NCBI RefSeq assembly: GCF_900112335.1 | Contig: NZ_FOLG01000023.1 | Location: 1-49,959, forward strand | Source of the DNA: Tropicimonas isoalkanivorans | Lineage (GTDB): Bacteria > Pseudomonadota > Alphaproteobacteria > Rhodobacterales > Rhodobacteraceae | DNA length: 49,959 bases | Direction: 5' to 3' | Part shown: positions 3,311-32,293 of the stretch, one piece after another | How positions within the stretch are numbered: position 1 is the first letter of the stretch | Layout: the number at the start of each line of letters is the position of its first letter | The notes under the pieces: model-generated | Seen by the model: only the letters and a program-made list of their open reading frames with translations | Told to the model about the DNA's origin: nothing | The model's database searches: none | Translations under genes and position numbers: made by a program

Positions 3311-4876
3311 TCAGTTCGCTCCCGTTCCGACGAATGTGGAGTCCTTATACACGCGTTCGCCGCTGGACAAATCCTCGATCCAGAACCGGATGTCGGAACG
3401 GTTGGCTGTCGCCGCCTCCGAACCGGCTGGGGCCAGCACATAAATCCGCTCCTTGCCGGTCGTGTCTGCGGGAACCATGAAGCTTTCGTAGGGTGTCCCC
3501 TCGACGGCAATCCGCAGGTCCGGATGCGCGCTCTTGATGGAGACGCGGAAACGCCGATCCTCGCCGTGCTTGTTTCGCAGCCCGAAGTCGTAGGTGTTGC
3601 GGATGGTGCCGTCGGACAGTGTCACAAAGGTCGGCTGGCGAACCGGGTGGACGGTGGCGGAAATGTCCGGCCGGATGAAAAGCGCCACCACCAAGCCGAT
3701 ACCAACGGCGGACCACAGGAAGGTGTAGAGCAGCGTGCGCACGCGGAAAACGTGGCGCCAGACAGATTTCGGCGCCTCGCCCTCGCGTTCGCGCACCTCG
3801 TCACTCAGGGCGAGGTAGCCGATCAGCCCGCGTGGCTTGCCGATCTTGTCCATGATGTCGTCGCAGGCATCGATGCAAAGCGCGCACGTGATACATTCGA
3901 GCTGCTGGCCGTCGCGAATGTCGATGCCCATGGGGCAGACGTTCACGCAGGCCATGCAGTCGATGCAGTCCCCCGGCCCCGCCGGCGCGCCCGCAGGTAT
4001 GTCGCCGCCGACCTGCAGCTCCTTGGTGGGATAGGGGGTAGCCTCGTATTTCACCTCGCCCGGGCCGGCCGGACGCGACGTCGCCTCCGCCTGCGCAGCC
4101 TGCGCCATCGACCTGCGGCGCACGTTCCCCTTGCCACGCGGTTCGCCCCGCCATTCACGATACGCGACGGTGATCGTGTCCGGGTCCATCATTGCGGCCT
4201 GAATGCGCGGCCAGGGGCACATGTAGATGCACACCTGCTCACGCATGAACCCCCCAAAGACCAACGTGGTGAAGGTCAGAACGCCGATGGAGGTGTAGGC
4301 CGCCGGATGCGCGTCGAACGTGAAAAGATCGCGCAGCAGTGTTGGCGCGTCGGTGAAATAGAACACCCAGGCGCCGCCCGTGGCGATGGCGATCAGCGTC
4401 CAGACAAGGTACTTCGTGGCCCGAAGGCGCAGCTTCCGGCCATCCATTTTCTTTTGCCGGTGCAGCCGCAAGCGGGCGTTGCGGTCGCCTTCGATCCAGC
4501 GTTCGACAAGGATGAACAGATCCGTCCAGACCGTCTGCGGGCACGTGTACCCACACCAGACCCGCCCGAGGGCCGACGTGAACAGGAAGAGCCCCAGGCC
4601 AGCCATGATGAGCAGCCCCGCGACGAAGTAGAACTCGTGCGGCCAGATCTCGATCCAGAAGAAGAAGAAACGGCGGTTTGCCAGATCGACCAGCACCGCT
4701 TGATCGGGCAAGTTGGGACCGCGGTCCCACCGGATCCAGGGCGTCAGATAGTAGATGCCCAGGGTCACGATCATGATTCCCCACTTCAGATTCCGGAATC
4801 GGCCGTAGACCTTTCGGGGAAACACGGGTTCGCGCGCGGAATAAAGTTGCTCGGTCTGGCTGCCAGTGTCGCTCAC
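3311..4876 (-). CDS. ccoG: membrane iron-sulfur protein CcoG (RdxA/FixG)
   Basis: A polyferredoxin-type membrane protein that takes part in copper reduction and delivery during cbb3 oxidase assembly. It has about five membrane helices and two ferredoxin-like clusters, CIDCMACVNVCP and CITCALCIDAC, around residues 300-345, plus CGYTCPQT and CIYMCPWPR. I chose the GTG at 4876 (521 residues; SVSDTGSQTEQ region). It has a GGAG 8 bases upstream, and the longer frame, open to 5143, would run through the FNR box at 4943 and the predicted promoter. It is the first gene of the ccoGHIS operon. Confidence 0.93.
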   Translation of the reverse strand: MSDTGSQTEQLYSAREPVFPRKVYGRFRNLKWGIMIVTLGIYYLTPWIRWDRGPNLPDQAVLVDLANRRFFFFWIEIWPHEFYFVAGLLIMAGLGLFLFTSALGRVWCGYTCPQTVWTDLFILVERWIEGDRNARLRLHRQKKMDGRKLRLRATKYLVWTLIAIATGGAWVFYFTDAPTLLRDLFTFDAHPAAYTSIGVLTFTTLVFGGFMREQVCIYMCPWPRIQAAMMDPDTITVAYREWRGEPRGKGNVRRRSMAQAAQAEATSRPAGPGEVKYEATPYPTKELQVGGDIPAGAPAGPGDCIDCMACVNVCPMGIDIRDGQQLECITCALCIDACDDIMDKIGKPRGLIGYLALSDEVREREGEAPKSVWRHVFRVRTLLYTFLWSAVGIGLVVALFIRPDISATVHPVRQPTFVTLSDGTIRNTYDFGLRNKHGEDRRFRVSIKSAHPDLRIAVEGTPYESFMVPADTTGKERIYVLAPAGSEAATANRSDIRFWIEDLSSGERVYKDSTFVGTGAN

Positions 4877-4942
4877 GGAGATCTCCGGTGGCTGAAGGTT
4901 CGCGATGTCGCCCGTTCTAGGGGCGCGCAAGAAAAGGCGTCT

Positions 4943-4956
4943 TTGATATGCATCAA
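4943..4956 (-). promoter_or_regulatory. FNR box upstream of ccoG
   Basis: TTGATATGCATCAA is a perfect TTGAT-N4-ATCAA palindrome. Reading the minus strand, 21 bases separate its end from a possible -10 (TAGAAC, 4 of 6 matches to TATAAT). This fits class II FNR activation with the site centred near -41.5. The predicted start near 4908 gives a leader of about 32 bases before the ccoG GTG. Confidence 0.85.
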
Positions 4957-5063
4957 TTAGGGCCCGGGGCCCAGTCCTTGCGGAGACACATACCAAATGA
5001 GCCACTGACAGGAACTGCGCCCGCGTGTCGCGTGCATTCAATTGAATGTGATTTGAGGATATA

Positions 5064-5122
5064 CCAAATAAAGGCGCCCCGGCTCTCCTAGGAAACGCGC
5101 GAACAGGACGGAGAGCCGGGGC
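5064..5122 (-). terminator. intrinsic terminator of the candidate small RNA
   Basis: On the minus strand a perfect 13-bp stem (GCCCCGGCTCTCC with GGAGAGCCGGGGC, bases 5110-5122 and 5076-5088) closes a 21-base loop and is followed by GCCTTTATTTGG. No protein gene ends just before it, because ccoP already has its own terminator at 5331-5361. It therefore ends a separate short transcript. Confidence 0.75.
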
Positions 5123-5218
5123 GTATCTTCCAGGGGAGGACACCCTCTGGAAACGCTATGTCATTGGGGTTCAGGACGGTGCGTCGCCAGTCTCGGCGAA
5201 AGTGCCTCCCGAACCGTT
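5068..5218 (-). ncRNA. candidate FNR-activated small RNA between ccoP and ccoG
   Basis: Inferred transcript of about 150 nt. Its promoter is the perfect FNR box at 5253-5266, with TACAAA (4 of 6 to TATAAT) correctly placed at 5225-5230 and a predicted start near 5218. Its end is the 13-bp hairpin and T-rich run at 5064-5122. Inside are a hairpin with arms TCGCC/GGCGA and a second, strong hairpin at 5128-5152 (TTCCAG, one bulged A, GGG; loop; CCC, CTGGAA). The loop of the second is pyrimidine-rich (TGTCCT) and runs into CCCC, so it could pair with Shine-Dalgarno sequences. A 51-codon open frame from ATG 5243 crosses this interval, but it would start upstream of the predicted transcript, so I do not call a protein. 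Confidence 0.6.
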
Positions 5219-5252
5219 GTCCTTTTTGTAGGGCGGTGGGCATGGGCCGGCC

Positions 5253-5266
5253 TTGATCCAGATCAA
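5253..5266 (-). promoter_or_regulatory. FNR box without an adjacent protein gene
   Basis: TTGATCCAGATCAA is a perfect FNR consensus. It lies 65 bases downstream of the ccoP terminator stem and about 377 bases from the ccoG start, which has its own FNR box. On the minus strand it is spaced for class II activation of a start near 5218, at the head of the candidate small RNA. Confidence 0.82.
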
Positions 5267-5324
5267 ATAGATTTCTCAGATGTGGCTTTTAGCTCGCATA
5301 CCCGCCATGCTCCACACGCAAGAA

Positions 5325-5361
5325 AAGCATCGCCCCGCCCCCGGTTTCCGGGGACGGGGCG
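5325..5361 (-). terminator. terminator of the ccoNOQP operon
   Basis: On the minus strand, just after the ccoP stop, a GC-rich hairpin forms (arms at 5348-5361 and 5331-5344, 3-base loop, one mismatch in 14 pairs). It is followed by ATGCTTTTCTTG. It separates ccoP from the transcription units further on. Confidence 0.8.
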
Positions 5362-5387
5362 AGCCGCCTTGCATCCAGATGAGCGCG

Positions 5388-6284
5388 TTACTGCTCCTCG
5401 GCGACACCCCCACCGAGGCTGTGCACATAGGTTGCTACGGCACGCACCATGGCTTCGTCCAGCACATCGGCGGGCGCCCCGCCACGCGGCGGCATCACGC
5501 CGCCACGCCCGTTCTGGAGGGTCTCGTGAAGTGTCTCCGGATCCCCACCATAGAGCCAGATCGCATCGGTCAGGTTCGGAGCTCCGACAGCGATGTCGCC
5601 GGTCCCGTCGTCCCCGTGGCAGGAGGCGCAGTTGTCGAGGAAAATGGTCTCGCCGGCACTGGCAAGCTCCTGATCATGATCCTGCGCCGAGATCTGCTGC
5701 ACGTAAGCGATGACCTGGTCGATTTCCTCAGGCGAGAGCAACTCGTCGCGGCCGAAAGCCAGCATGTCGCCGAAGCGCGATTCGTCGTTGTAGCGGATGC
5801 CGTAGGAGATCGTCGTGTGGATCTCGTCGATCGTGCCGCCCCAGAGCCAGCTGTCGTCGAGCAGGCTCGGGTACCCGCCGGACTGTTGCCCCTGAGCGCC
5901 CGCGCCGTGACACTGAGCGCACCAAGTGCGGAAGACGGCAGCGCCGGCATTCTGGGCATAGCTCATCAGCTCCGGATTGTTCGGAATATCCGCCAATTCG
6001 GTATCGACCAGCTGTTGCTTGATATCGGCGTTCGCATCCTCGAACCGCGCCATTTCCGCCGCCACGTTCGCGCGCGTCGAATGACCGAGCAACCCGGCGG
6101 TGGCGTGGTTCACAAGCGGCCAAGCCGGGTAAAGGATCGTGTAGATCAGCGCCCAAACGACCGTTGCGTAAAAGGTCCACAGCCACCAACGGGGAAGAGG
6201 ATTGTTGTATTCCTCGATCCCGTCCCAGCTGTGGCCGGTCGTTTCGACCTCATTCTTTTCTTTCTTCACAGGTTTTTTGCTCAT
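5388..6284 (-). CDS. ccoP: cbb3 cytochrome c oxidase subunit III, dihaem CcoP
   Basis: A 298-residue dihaem cytochrome c that passes electrons into the cbb3 oxidase. A membrane segment lies near residues 34-55 ([18 protein letters not shown]), after the usual cytoplasmic start with [11 protein letters not shown]. The haem c sites are CAQCH (residues 122-126) and CASCH (219-223); Met-containing stretches (GDMLAFGRD and GGVMPPRGG) supply likely axial ligands. The ATG overlaps the ccoQ stop by 4 bases, so the two are translationally coupled. Length is normal for the family. Confidence 0.97.
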
Positions 6285-9053: not shown

Positions 9054-9067
9054 TTGATCTAGGTCAA
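9054..9067. promoter_or_regulatory. FNR-type box between ccoN and the usp gene
   Basis: TTGATCTAGGTCAA matches the FNR consensus with one change in the right half-site (GTCAA for ATCAA). It lies almost exactly midway between the divergent starts of ccoN (8961) and the universal stress gene (9162), with its centre about 100 bases from each. It could serve either promoter or both. The -10 elements are weak, so I do not fix a transcription start. Confidence 0.72.
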
Positions 9068-10122: not shown

Positions 10123-10869
10123 TCAGACAGGCATGCCGCCGTCCGTATCGTCCCCGGTTTCCAGCATAAGGCGATCGAAGTCCGGCACCGAAACGTGACG
10201 TTTTCCAGCCAGTTGGATGACGCCCTCCCGCTTGAGCGCGGAAACCTGACGGCTGACCGTTTCCAGCGTCAGCCCAAGGTAATCGGCCATCGCCTCCCGC
10301 GTCAGCGGCAGGTCGAACTCCATCCGGCCAGAGGGAACACCGCGTGTCAGCGAGGCGTCACGGCGGGCAATGATGGCCAACAGGCTCGCGATCTTCTCCC
10401 GCGCGGTCTTGCGGCCAAGCAGGAGCATCCACTCGCGCGCCGCGTCCAGTTCGTCCAGCGTCATTTCCAGCAGGCGCTGCGCGATGTGGGGTGTTGATCG
10501 CATCAATTCTTCGAACGGACGGCGGCGGAAGCAGCACATCACCACCTCGGTGGTGGCGGTCACATCATAGCTCGCCACCTCGCGCCCGGGCCGCCCCATG
10601 AAATCCGAGGGGAGAAGCAGCCCGACCATCTGGGTCCGACCGTCCTCCAGCGTCTGGCTCAGGGTGGCAATGCCGCTAACCATTGTGGCAACGAAATCCA
10701 GCTTGTCGCCCGTCCATGCGATGGTTTGCCCGGCCTCGAACGACCTGTAATATTTCATTTCCTCGAGTTGGTCCAACTCGGGGGCCTCGCAGCGTGCACA
10801 AACGGCCCGGTGCCGGATGGGGCAATCCGCACAATCCACGTGGGTCAGTTCGATTTCCTGCATCTCCAT
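10123..10869 (-). CDS. fnrL: oxygen-sensing Crp/FNR-family regulator FnrL
   Basis: A 248-residue transcription factor. The N-terminus carries Cys13, Cys16, Cys24 and Cys27, and Cys112/Cys113 (VMCCFRRR) lie in the effector domain, giving the ligands for an oxygen-labile [4Fe-4S] cluster. A cNMP-binding-like beta-barrel is followed by a helix-turn-helix near residues 182-212 (REAMADYLGLTLETVSRQVS). Its recognition helix has E-T-V-S-R, the FNR-type reading head for TTGAT. It is the evident regulator of the four FNR boxes in this window. One box lies only 16 bases upstream of its own ATG, where bound protein would block RNA polymerase, so negative autoregulation is likely. Confidence 0.95.
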   Translation of the reverse strand: MEMQEIELTHVDCADCPIRHRAVCARCEAPELDQLEEMKYYRSFEAGQTIAWTGDKLDFVATMVSGIATLSQTLEDGRTQMVGLLLPSDFMGRPGREVASYDVTATTEVVMCCFRRRPFEELMRSTPHIAQRLLEMTLDELDAAREWMLLLGRKTAREKIASLLAIIARRDASLTRGVPSGRMEFDLPLTREAMADYLGLTLETVSRQVSALKREGVIQLAGKRHVSVPDFDRLMLETGDDTDGGMPV

Positions 10870-10884
10870 CCGCGCGCACCAATC

Positions 10885-10898
10885 TTGATCTCAATCAA
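10885..10898. promoter_or_regulatory. FNR box between fnrL and hemN
   Basis: TTGATCTCAATCAA is a perfect FNR consensus. Its centre (10891.5) is 42 bases upstream of the hemN ATG and 22 bases upstream of the fnrL ATG. That geometry fits activation of hemN from a start at or next to its ATG, and repression of fnrL. Confidence 0.85.
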
Positions 10899-31447: not shown

Positions 31448-32293
31448 TCAATTTTCCGAAGATTCTCCGGGCCGCCGCGTCAGGCCCACAAAATCGAACA
31501 GATCCGGGTCGAGCAGATGCGAGGGACGCGCATTCATCAGCGCGCGGAACATCTTTTGCCGGCGCCCGGGGTGATTGGCCTCCCACCCGTCGATCAGGGC
31601 CTTCACCTGCTGGCGTTGAAGCCCGTCCTGGCTGCCGCACAGGTCGCACGGGATGATCGGGTAATTCATGGCCGCCGCGAAACGCGCGCAATCGGCCTCG
31701 GCCACATGGGCGAGCGGGCGGTAGACGAAAAGATCCCCCTGCTCGTTCAGCAGTTTGGGCGGCATCGTCGCCAGCCGCGACCCGTGAAAAAGGTTCATGA
31801 AGAACGTCTCGAGGATGTCGTCACGGTGATGGCCCAGAACCACCGCCGAGCACCCCTCCTCCCGCGCGATGCGGTAGAGGTTGCCGCGGCGCAGGCGCGA
31901 GCAGAGCGCACAATAGGTCCGCCCTTCCGGCACCTTGTCCATGACGATGGAATAGGTGTCCTGATACTCGATCCGGTGCGGCACCCCCATGCGTTCCAGA
32001 AATTCCGGCAGGACCGTCGCCGGAAACCCGGGCTGGCCCTGATCGAGGTTGCAGGCGAGCAGGTCGACCGGCAGCAGGCCGCGCCATTTCAACTCGTGCA
32101 GCACCGCGAGCAGCGTATAGCTGTCCTTGCCGCCAGACAGGCACACCAACCAACGCGCGTCGCGCTCGATCATGCCGTACTGCTCGACGGCCTCCCGAAC
32201 TTCGCGCACGATCCGCTTGCGCAGCTTCTTGAACGCCGTCGTGTCGGGCGCGCCATGGAACAGCGGATGGATATCGTCCAGATCGTCGAACAT
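31448..32293 (-). CDS. ttcA: tRNA 2-thiocytidine synthetase TtcA
   Basis: A 281-residue ATP pyrophosphatase that makes 2-thiocytidine at tRNA position 32. The PP-loop is SGGKDS (residues 53-58). The [4Fe-4S] ligands are in [14 protein letters not shown] and [18 protein letters not shown] follows in [14 protein letters not shown]. The length is normal. It lies 45 bases downstream of the FAD-linked oxidase gene on the same strand, so it may be co-transcribed with it. Confidence 0.95.

Follow-up and report, generated by a model that had tools for sequence, protein, structure and literature searches.

Small RNAs (sRNAs) of the NarS type come from the 3' untranslated region (3' UTR) at the end of an FNR-controlled respiratory operon and act on a neighbouring gene. 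In Escherichia coli, FnrS is a directly FNR-regulated sRNA that represses its target RNAs under anaerobic conditions (PMC4263372). Here we describe a candidate RNA element of the same kind, encoded on the minus strand between ccoP, the last gene of the cbb3 oxidase operon ccoNOQP, and ccoG of the assembly operon ccoGHIS in Tropicimonas isoalkanivorans (Rhodobacterales, Rhodobacteraceae). The window, i.e., the whole stretch of DNA analysed, comprises positions 1 to 49,959 of contig NZ_FOLG01000023.1 (49,959 nucleotides, nt). An initial annotation had proposed an FNR-activated small RNA at this place, and comparison with related genomes gives this candidate good support. Two of the features expected of such RNAs were found, namely an FNR box and a -10 element separated by class II spacing, and a conserved, structured RNA with a terminator. 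FNR-regulated sRNAs as a kind are already known from FnrS. The present RNA and FnrS differ in lineage, in locus and in the position of the proposed seed, which here lies in the terminator loop. No Rfam 15 family matches the RNA locus at its gathering score, so that the hairpin RNA is not of the same family as FnrS and its assignment to a known Rfam family was set aside; at E values up to 10, positions 4900-5400 gave six weak matches only, all far below their gathering scores. Unlike NarS-type RNAs, the element alternates between a 3' UTR and a location with an FNR box of its own.

The CcsR1-4 sRNAs of Rhodobacter sphaeroides belong to the same order, also occur as several copies in a row and carry the loop motif CCUCCUCCC, which is absent from the RNA locus described here. 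They are encoded downstream of a DUF1127 gene; their transcription depends on an RpoHI/II promoter, and processing releases them from the ccaF1 transcript (PMC10253847). Conversely, the present RNA lies between ccoP and ccoG, has an FNR box instead of an RpoH promoter and lacks CCUCCUCCC; on these grounds it is not a CcsR RNA. Two other R. sphaeroides sRNAs, RSs0019 and RSs2461, have FnrL sites detected by chromatin immunoprecipitation sequencing in their putative promoter regions (PMC4263372). Their origins are different, as RSs0019 is RpoE-dependent and an RpoHI/II promoter drives the joint transcription of RSP_0847 and RSs2461 (PMC3320616), and the text portions of PMC4263372 and PMC3320616 considered here place neither of them at ccoP (RSP_0693). 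In Paracoccus denitrificans, where the hairpin lies 55 nt after the ccoP stop codon (L119), 167 sRNAs have been catalogued by RNA sequencing (PMC5107571); the main text of that paper contains no word beginning with cco, and its catalogue may already hold the hairpin RNA. Among the literature matches listed, no published report of the hairpin RNA or of three words of its loop was found.

Comparison shows a conserved RNA hairpin at the 3' end of the element, the stem of which covaries around the fixed loop CUGUUCGCGCGUUUCC. A 166-nt DNA query gave matches in 52 of 198 genomes of the family, 48 of them within query positions 99-165, which correspond to this last hairpin, and in 30 matching loci compared in full the loop CTGTTCGCGCGTTTCC is common to all while the stem varies. 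A covariance model of the hairpin (R1) matched 199 of the 390 genomes of the order (genomes at least 90% complete), with carriers in genera such as Paracoccus, Roseovarius and Thioclava, and produced three matches in a class-wide sample of 289 genomes, all within the family of the window. The FixP_N domain of ccoP was detected in 374 of the 390 genomes of the order, and none of the 16 genomes lacking it has the hairpin. Close relatives, whose lack of the box and the hairpins would have told against the RNA according to the initial annotation, do carry the element: all four congeneric genomes (the own genome included) match the model and the congeneric locus L002 also has the FNR box, box-less copies elsewhere being situated in the ccoP 3' UTR. 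On 103 distinct rows, double changes were observed in 13 of 13 pairs and 96.3% of the cells were paired, a value equalled by none of 500 shuffles, in an alignment that was fitted to the model and hence favours the structure. Four antisense matches and one degenerate copy are contained in the hairpin alignment A2. Sliding the stem partners against each other lowered the pairing to 39-54%.

The genomic setting of the hairpin was examined at 152 places, each with the exact loop and with flanks that differ from those of the others, out of 181 loci (the best BLAST and model matches plus the exact-loop matches listed); loop counts hold for the matches listed and, as only exact loops were used, the invariance of the loop is partly due to selection. 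At 91 of the 152 places the loop is located 19-99 nt after the ccoP stop codon, and none of these 91 has an FNR box 60-165 nt upstream. At 49 places the loop lies farther from the ccoP stop codon, and 48 of these have an FNR box at -78 to -162; the sole box-less distant copy is the second of two tandem copies. Of the 12 places that fall into neither class, two are truncated, six have a box while ccoP is out of reach, two are loop matches attributed to chance and two are real hairpins without a near box. About 3% of random 118-nt stretches of the sampled loci contain an FNR box. When 54 boxes are aligned, position -11 is A in 46, -12 is T or C in 41, -7 is T in 25, -1 is C in 29 and +1 is A in 28, a -10/+1 profile as in class II FNR promoters. 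The simplest reading of this distribution is that the RNA would be kept under FNR, either as the tail of ccoNOQP or by means of its own promoter. In R. sphaeroides, FnrL raises the activity of the ccoN promoter (PMC4263372).

Some copies deserve separate mention. One genus has two to four model matches per genome, mostly about 92 nt apart; in its loci L202-L207 the hairpin copies follow ccoP in tandem at this spacing, and two contigs of genome G379 end within the array. A weak second copy (L014:578-630, 28.6 bits) is located directly 3' of ccoP; a free-standing FNR copy is present in the same genome, and the weak copy is possibly a remnant of the 3' UTR form. At L018 a complete hairpin lies between cation-efflux-like and transporter-like genes (as judged from open reading frames), with no ccoP or ccoG match in the locus. 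The exact loop was also found in a Verrucomicrobia metagenome-assembled genome (L097) and in an Achromobacter genome (L135), where the model fits the loop only, and these matches were treated as chance.

In the window itself, the minus-strand order between ccoP and ccoG is ccoP terminator, FNR box, TACAAA, three hairpins and ccoG FNR box (Table 1). Several elements described in the initial annotation were recovered as proposed, including the perfect FNR box (by a box scan), the TACAAA at class II spacing, and the separate terminator of ccoP and FNR box of ccoG. The claim of about 150 nt of structured sequence was borne out by segment 5218-5064 (155 nt), with a predicted fold of -72.6 kcal/mol (z = -4.1) and equally stable folds in 0 of 200 shuffles. 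As for the 13-base-pair (bp) stem with a T-rich tail, the hairpin stands but the stem has 14 bp, with a loop of 21 nt, and the tail CCTTTATTT is a modest one that contains T. This hairpin is omitted by a simple terminator scan because the scan allows only loops of 3-8 nt. NCBIfam matches support the names ccoP, ccoN, CcoG and FnrL in the window, which contains three perfect FNR boxes and two with one mismatch, compared with 0.58 expected at up to one mismatch. The third perfect box (10885-10898) lies directly upstream of fnrL (10123-10869, minus strand), which suggests autoregulation, and a one-mismatch box (9054-9067) between ccoN and a divergent universal-stress-like gene is likely the ccoNOQP promoter site.

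Table 1. Features of the ccoP-ccoG region, in order of transcription (positions of the window).
Feature	Position	Strand	Evidence and remarks
ccoP	5388..6284	-	Last gene of ccoNOQP, upstream of the RNA; open reading frame, FixP_N match 6111-6251, NCBIfam ccoP
ccoP intrinsic terminator	5330..5362	-	15-pair stem, T-rich tail; parts the RNA from the operon in this genome
Perfect FNR box TTGATCTGGATCAA	5253..5266	-	Box scan; matching position also occupied in L002, L088, L096, L138
-10 element TACAAA	5225..5230	-	Class II spacing to FNR box; predicted +1 at 5218
5' hairpin	5168..5215	-	Predicted fold; sequence varies among species
Second hairpin, with CCTCCCC	5127..5153	-	Predicted fold; present in 5/19 loci compared
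Conserved terminator hairpin of the RNA	5075..5123	-	14 bp, 21-nt loop; model R1 match 5072-5125, 66.3 bits; covariation
Conserved loop CTGTTCGCGCGTTTCC, proposed pairing seed	5091..5106	-	Loop comparison among loci
Separate perfect FNR box of ccoGHIS	4943..4956	-	Box scan
ccoG	3311..4876	-	Start GTG inferred at 4876 (open reading frame list begins at an upstream GTG); NCBIfam CcoG

A shorter version of the loop was detected in genomes that do not match the model. Of the 175 model-negative genomes that have ccoP, 32 were sampled, not at random but mainly among the first entries of the FixP_N list; the word CTGTTCGC occurs 13-66 nt after the ccoP stop codon in 18, whereas the reversed word is found in 0 of the 32 ccoP-downstream stretches (150 nt) and the reverse complement in 7 of them. 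Single-sequence folds leave at least five of the eight bases of CTGTTCGC unpaired in 10 of the 18 short-loop genomes. The seed thus probably has CUGUUCGC as its core, which the full-loop clade extends by GCGUUUCC.

Enriched complementarity to the loop was observed at three genes, ccoG, ctaD (aa3 oxidase) and fnrL, which are regarded as candidate targets. In short-loop genomes, GCGAACAG is present in 10 of 15 ccoG leaders, in every case at a distance of 48 or 49 nt from the start of the FNR box, which is the predicted +1 or +2 of the messenger RNA (mRNA). A box was recognised in 140 ccoG leaders; 24 of these contain GCGAACAG or GCGCAACAG (the latter form was included only after the data were seen) and in 23 of them the word begins at offset 48-51, corresponding to +1 to +4 as predicted from the ccoG FNR box. 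Shuffled words occurred at that place in 0.09 leaders on average, compared with 15 for GCGAACAG, although shuffles may regenerate the word; 0.2-3.5% of decoys do as well as the loop in short-loop genomes. The loop complement would thus coincide with the extreme 5' end of the ccoG mRNA, overlapping the Shine-Dalgarno sequence in several genomes. In full-loop genomes a ccoG complement was found in 13 of 116 leaders, 8 of them with an extra C.

In 101 genomes examined for the word CGCGAACAGGA ahead of an ATG, the gene concerned was, among the matches listed, ctaD in five of five sampled genomes of one genus and fnrL once; the follow-up covered 30 loci from the matches listed and 20 chosen by eye for Shine-Dalgarno-like sites. 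CtaD was the best NCBIfam match of a 500-residue piece, under the whole-protein cut-off. The two genes were then compared across genomes, each test including the 30 best matches and 40 chosen for spread (70 of 100 genomes with a ctaD match and 70 of 98 for fnrL). A loop complement of at least 7 nt within 30 nt of the ctaD start was detected in 22 of 42 model-positive vs 0 of 28 model-negative genomes (Fisher, 7e-7) or, counted by genera, in 15 of 31 vs 0 of 20, and 0.5% of 3000 dinucleotide decoys reached the ctaD count. Gene starts in general have such a complement in 17 of 317 cases, a background that includes two antisense hairpins and some ccoG. In the own genome the ctaD start reads AGGAAACGC-ATG, in which nine nt are complementary to the second half of the loop. 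For fnrL, 20 of 67 distinct leaders contain a complement and none of 3000 decoys was as good. Scans of the own genome, with GCGAACAGG before ATG at 35 sites and GGAAACGC before ATG at 65, are too noisy alone. In both the own genome and genome G186, the site was also found at rpoA (a name based on the translation alone). Likewise, CGCGAACAGGATTTTGG stands directly before the start codon of a GbsR/MarR-like gene (named from its translation only) in two loci of two genera (L297 and L298).

Based on this evidence, we consider it likely that the element is a small regulatory RNA of the Rhodobacteraceae FNR regulon which acts on respiratory mRNAs with its terminator loop as the pairing seed. In some lineages, that of the window included, the RNA would be transcribed from its own class II FNR promoter, and in others it would be the 3' end of the ccoNOQP mRNA; in either case it would end in an intrinsic-terminator hairpin with the large fixed loop as seed. 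Under low oxygen, the loop may pair with the mRNAs of ccoG, ctaD and possibly fnrL, either in the ribosome-binding region or at the extreme 5' end. Such pairing would most likely block translation, favouring the cbb3 oxidase and balancing its assembly factors. Covering a Shine-Dalgarno sequence usually represses, but pairing at the extreme 5' end can also protect an mRNA. Synthesis of the RNA, its pairing in the cell and a repressive effect are all inferred. A broader proposal is put forward tentatively and with more doubt, namely that one FNR-kept loop, alternating between the cbb3 3' UTR and a free-standing gene, may constitute a family-wide switch between terminal oxidases; in one clade it would silence ctaD, in another it would reach the first nucleotides of the ccoG mRNA, and it would exert feedback on fnrL.

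A number of observations weigh against this interpretation. The expected conservation among relatives holds for congeneric genomes but not for more distant ones, since 191 of the 390 genomes of the order have no model match, and 14 of the 32 model-negative genomes examined lack the short word too. The real hairpins at L018 and L022 have neither a box within 165 nt nor a ccoP match upstream (L022 has an FNR box at -198). In addition, FnrL raised ccoNOQP just 1.5-fold in Rhodobacter capsulatus (PMC4634722), and therefore the 3' UTR copies need not be strongly FNR-driven everywhere. With regard to the targets, 75 of 2000 random decoys in which two AGGA words are retained equal the ctaD count, 10 of the 22 ctaD sites are merely AACAGGA, close to an ordinary Shine-Dalgarno sequence, and the ctaD duplex energy in this genome is -18.8 compared with a mean of -18.3 for 34 gene starts of the window, so that duplex energies do not single out ctaD here. 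The fnrL enrichment is independent of the full hairpin (16 of 50 model-positive vs 4 of 20 model-negative genomes, p 0.39), and ccoG is a weak candidate in full-loop genomes (at least 8 nt in 8 of 126, with 4-5% of decoys as good). The site also precedes unrelated-looking genes among the start-site matches, and the relatedness of the genomes, which are not independent, inflates the counts.

Among other explanations, the one that survives best, although we regard it as unlikely, is that the loop is a protein-binding or mRNA-stability element at the ccoNOQP 3' end, standalone copies serving as decoys for the protein. The loop is indeed more fixed than a seed with few targets requires (partly by the selection of loci) and most copies follow ccoP directly (91/152 sampled places). 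Conversely, such an element would not lead one to expect the ccoG-start complement in short-loop genomes, nor a ctaD complement only where the model matches, and the standalone FNR promoters argue for a free RNA. Even less probable is a plain transcription terminator or insulator, with the FNR box idle or reading through into ccoG. The stem is GC-rich with a T-containing tail and, in the window copy, ccoG starts 231 nt beyond the loop, both of which agree with this possibility; nevertheless, a terminator has no need of a 16-nt loop that stays fixed, a separate FNR box serves ccoG, the box goes with the hairpin (48/49 vs 0/91) and tandem copies would be redundant for termination. The idea that CTGTTCGC and GCGAACAG are DNA operator sites around the ccoG promoter instead of RNA pairing partners draws on short-loop genomes, in which the two words lie on either side of the ccoG FNR box as an inverted repeat and GCGAACAG is found at +1/+2. 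It is the most improbable, as the strand of CTGTTCGC and its location within the loop of a covarying hairpin are unchanged in full-loop genomes, where the word persists though 103 of the 116 full-loop ccoG leaders lack the complement.

Regarding the second hairpin of the RNA, the initial annotation had seen its CCTCCCC stretch as presented for pairing with ribosome-binding sites. This part of the proposal found no support, since the predicted fold of 5153-5127 pairs four of the seven bases (CCC with GGG, and the last C with G) and exposes UGUCCU instead. As a family-wide key element it was discarded, being partly paired and present in 5 of 19 loci only (Tropicimonas, Aliiruegeria), with the CcsR motif absent; it is nearly identical in four of its five loci and may matter in that clade. 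The word CCTCCTCCC is absent from the RNA locus, its single match in the window being at 31855. A coding reading was also set aside: short frames of 51 (5243-5088) and 31 (5266-5171) amino acids cross the region, but each has its start upstream of the predicted +1, and the sequence of the 5' part of the RNA differs in L002, L088, L096 and L138, which disfavours it.

Within this order, transcription factors are the usual explanation for the shift from aa3 to cbb3 oxidase. If the proposal of a small regulatory RNA is true, genera including Paracoccus, Roseovarius and Thioclava would have an additional RNA layer in their oxygen response, based on a conserved, FNR-tied RNA at the cbb3 locus with complementarity to the assembly operon as well as the competing oxidase. 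FnrL has opposite effects in R. capsulatus, where it raises ccoNOQP RNA yet lowers ccoGHIS RNA (PMC4634722), a puzzle on which the RNA might bear if the hairpin is present there. Mutations in the loop and in the targets follow precisely from the proposed pairing, which makes it testable. Among the most informative new facts are the match of the loop to the predicted first bases of the ccoG mRNA and the near-perfect either-or of ccoP 3' UTR and own FNR box; the latter alternation would represent a clear natural case of an sRNA gene that switches its mode of expression and keeps its control.
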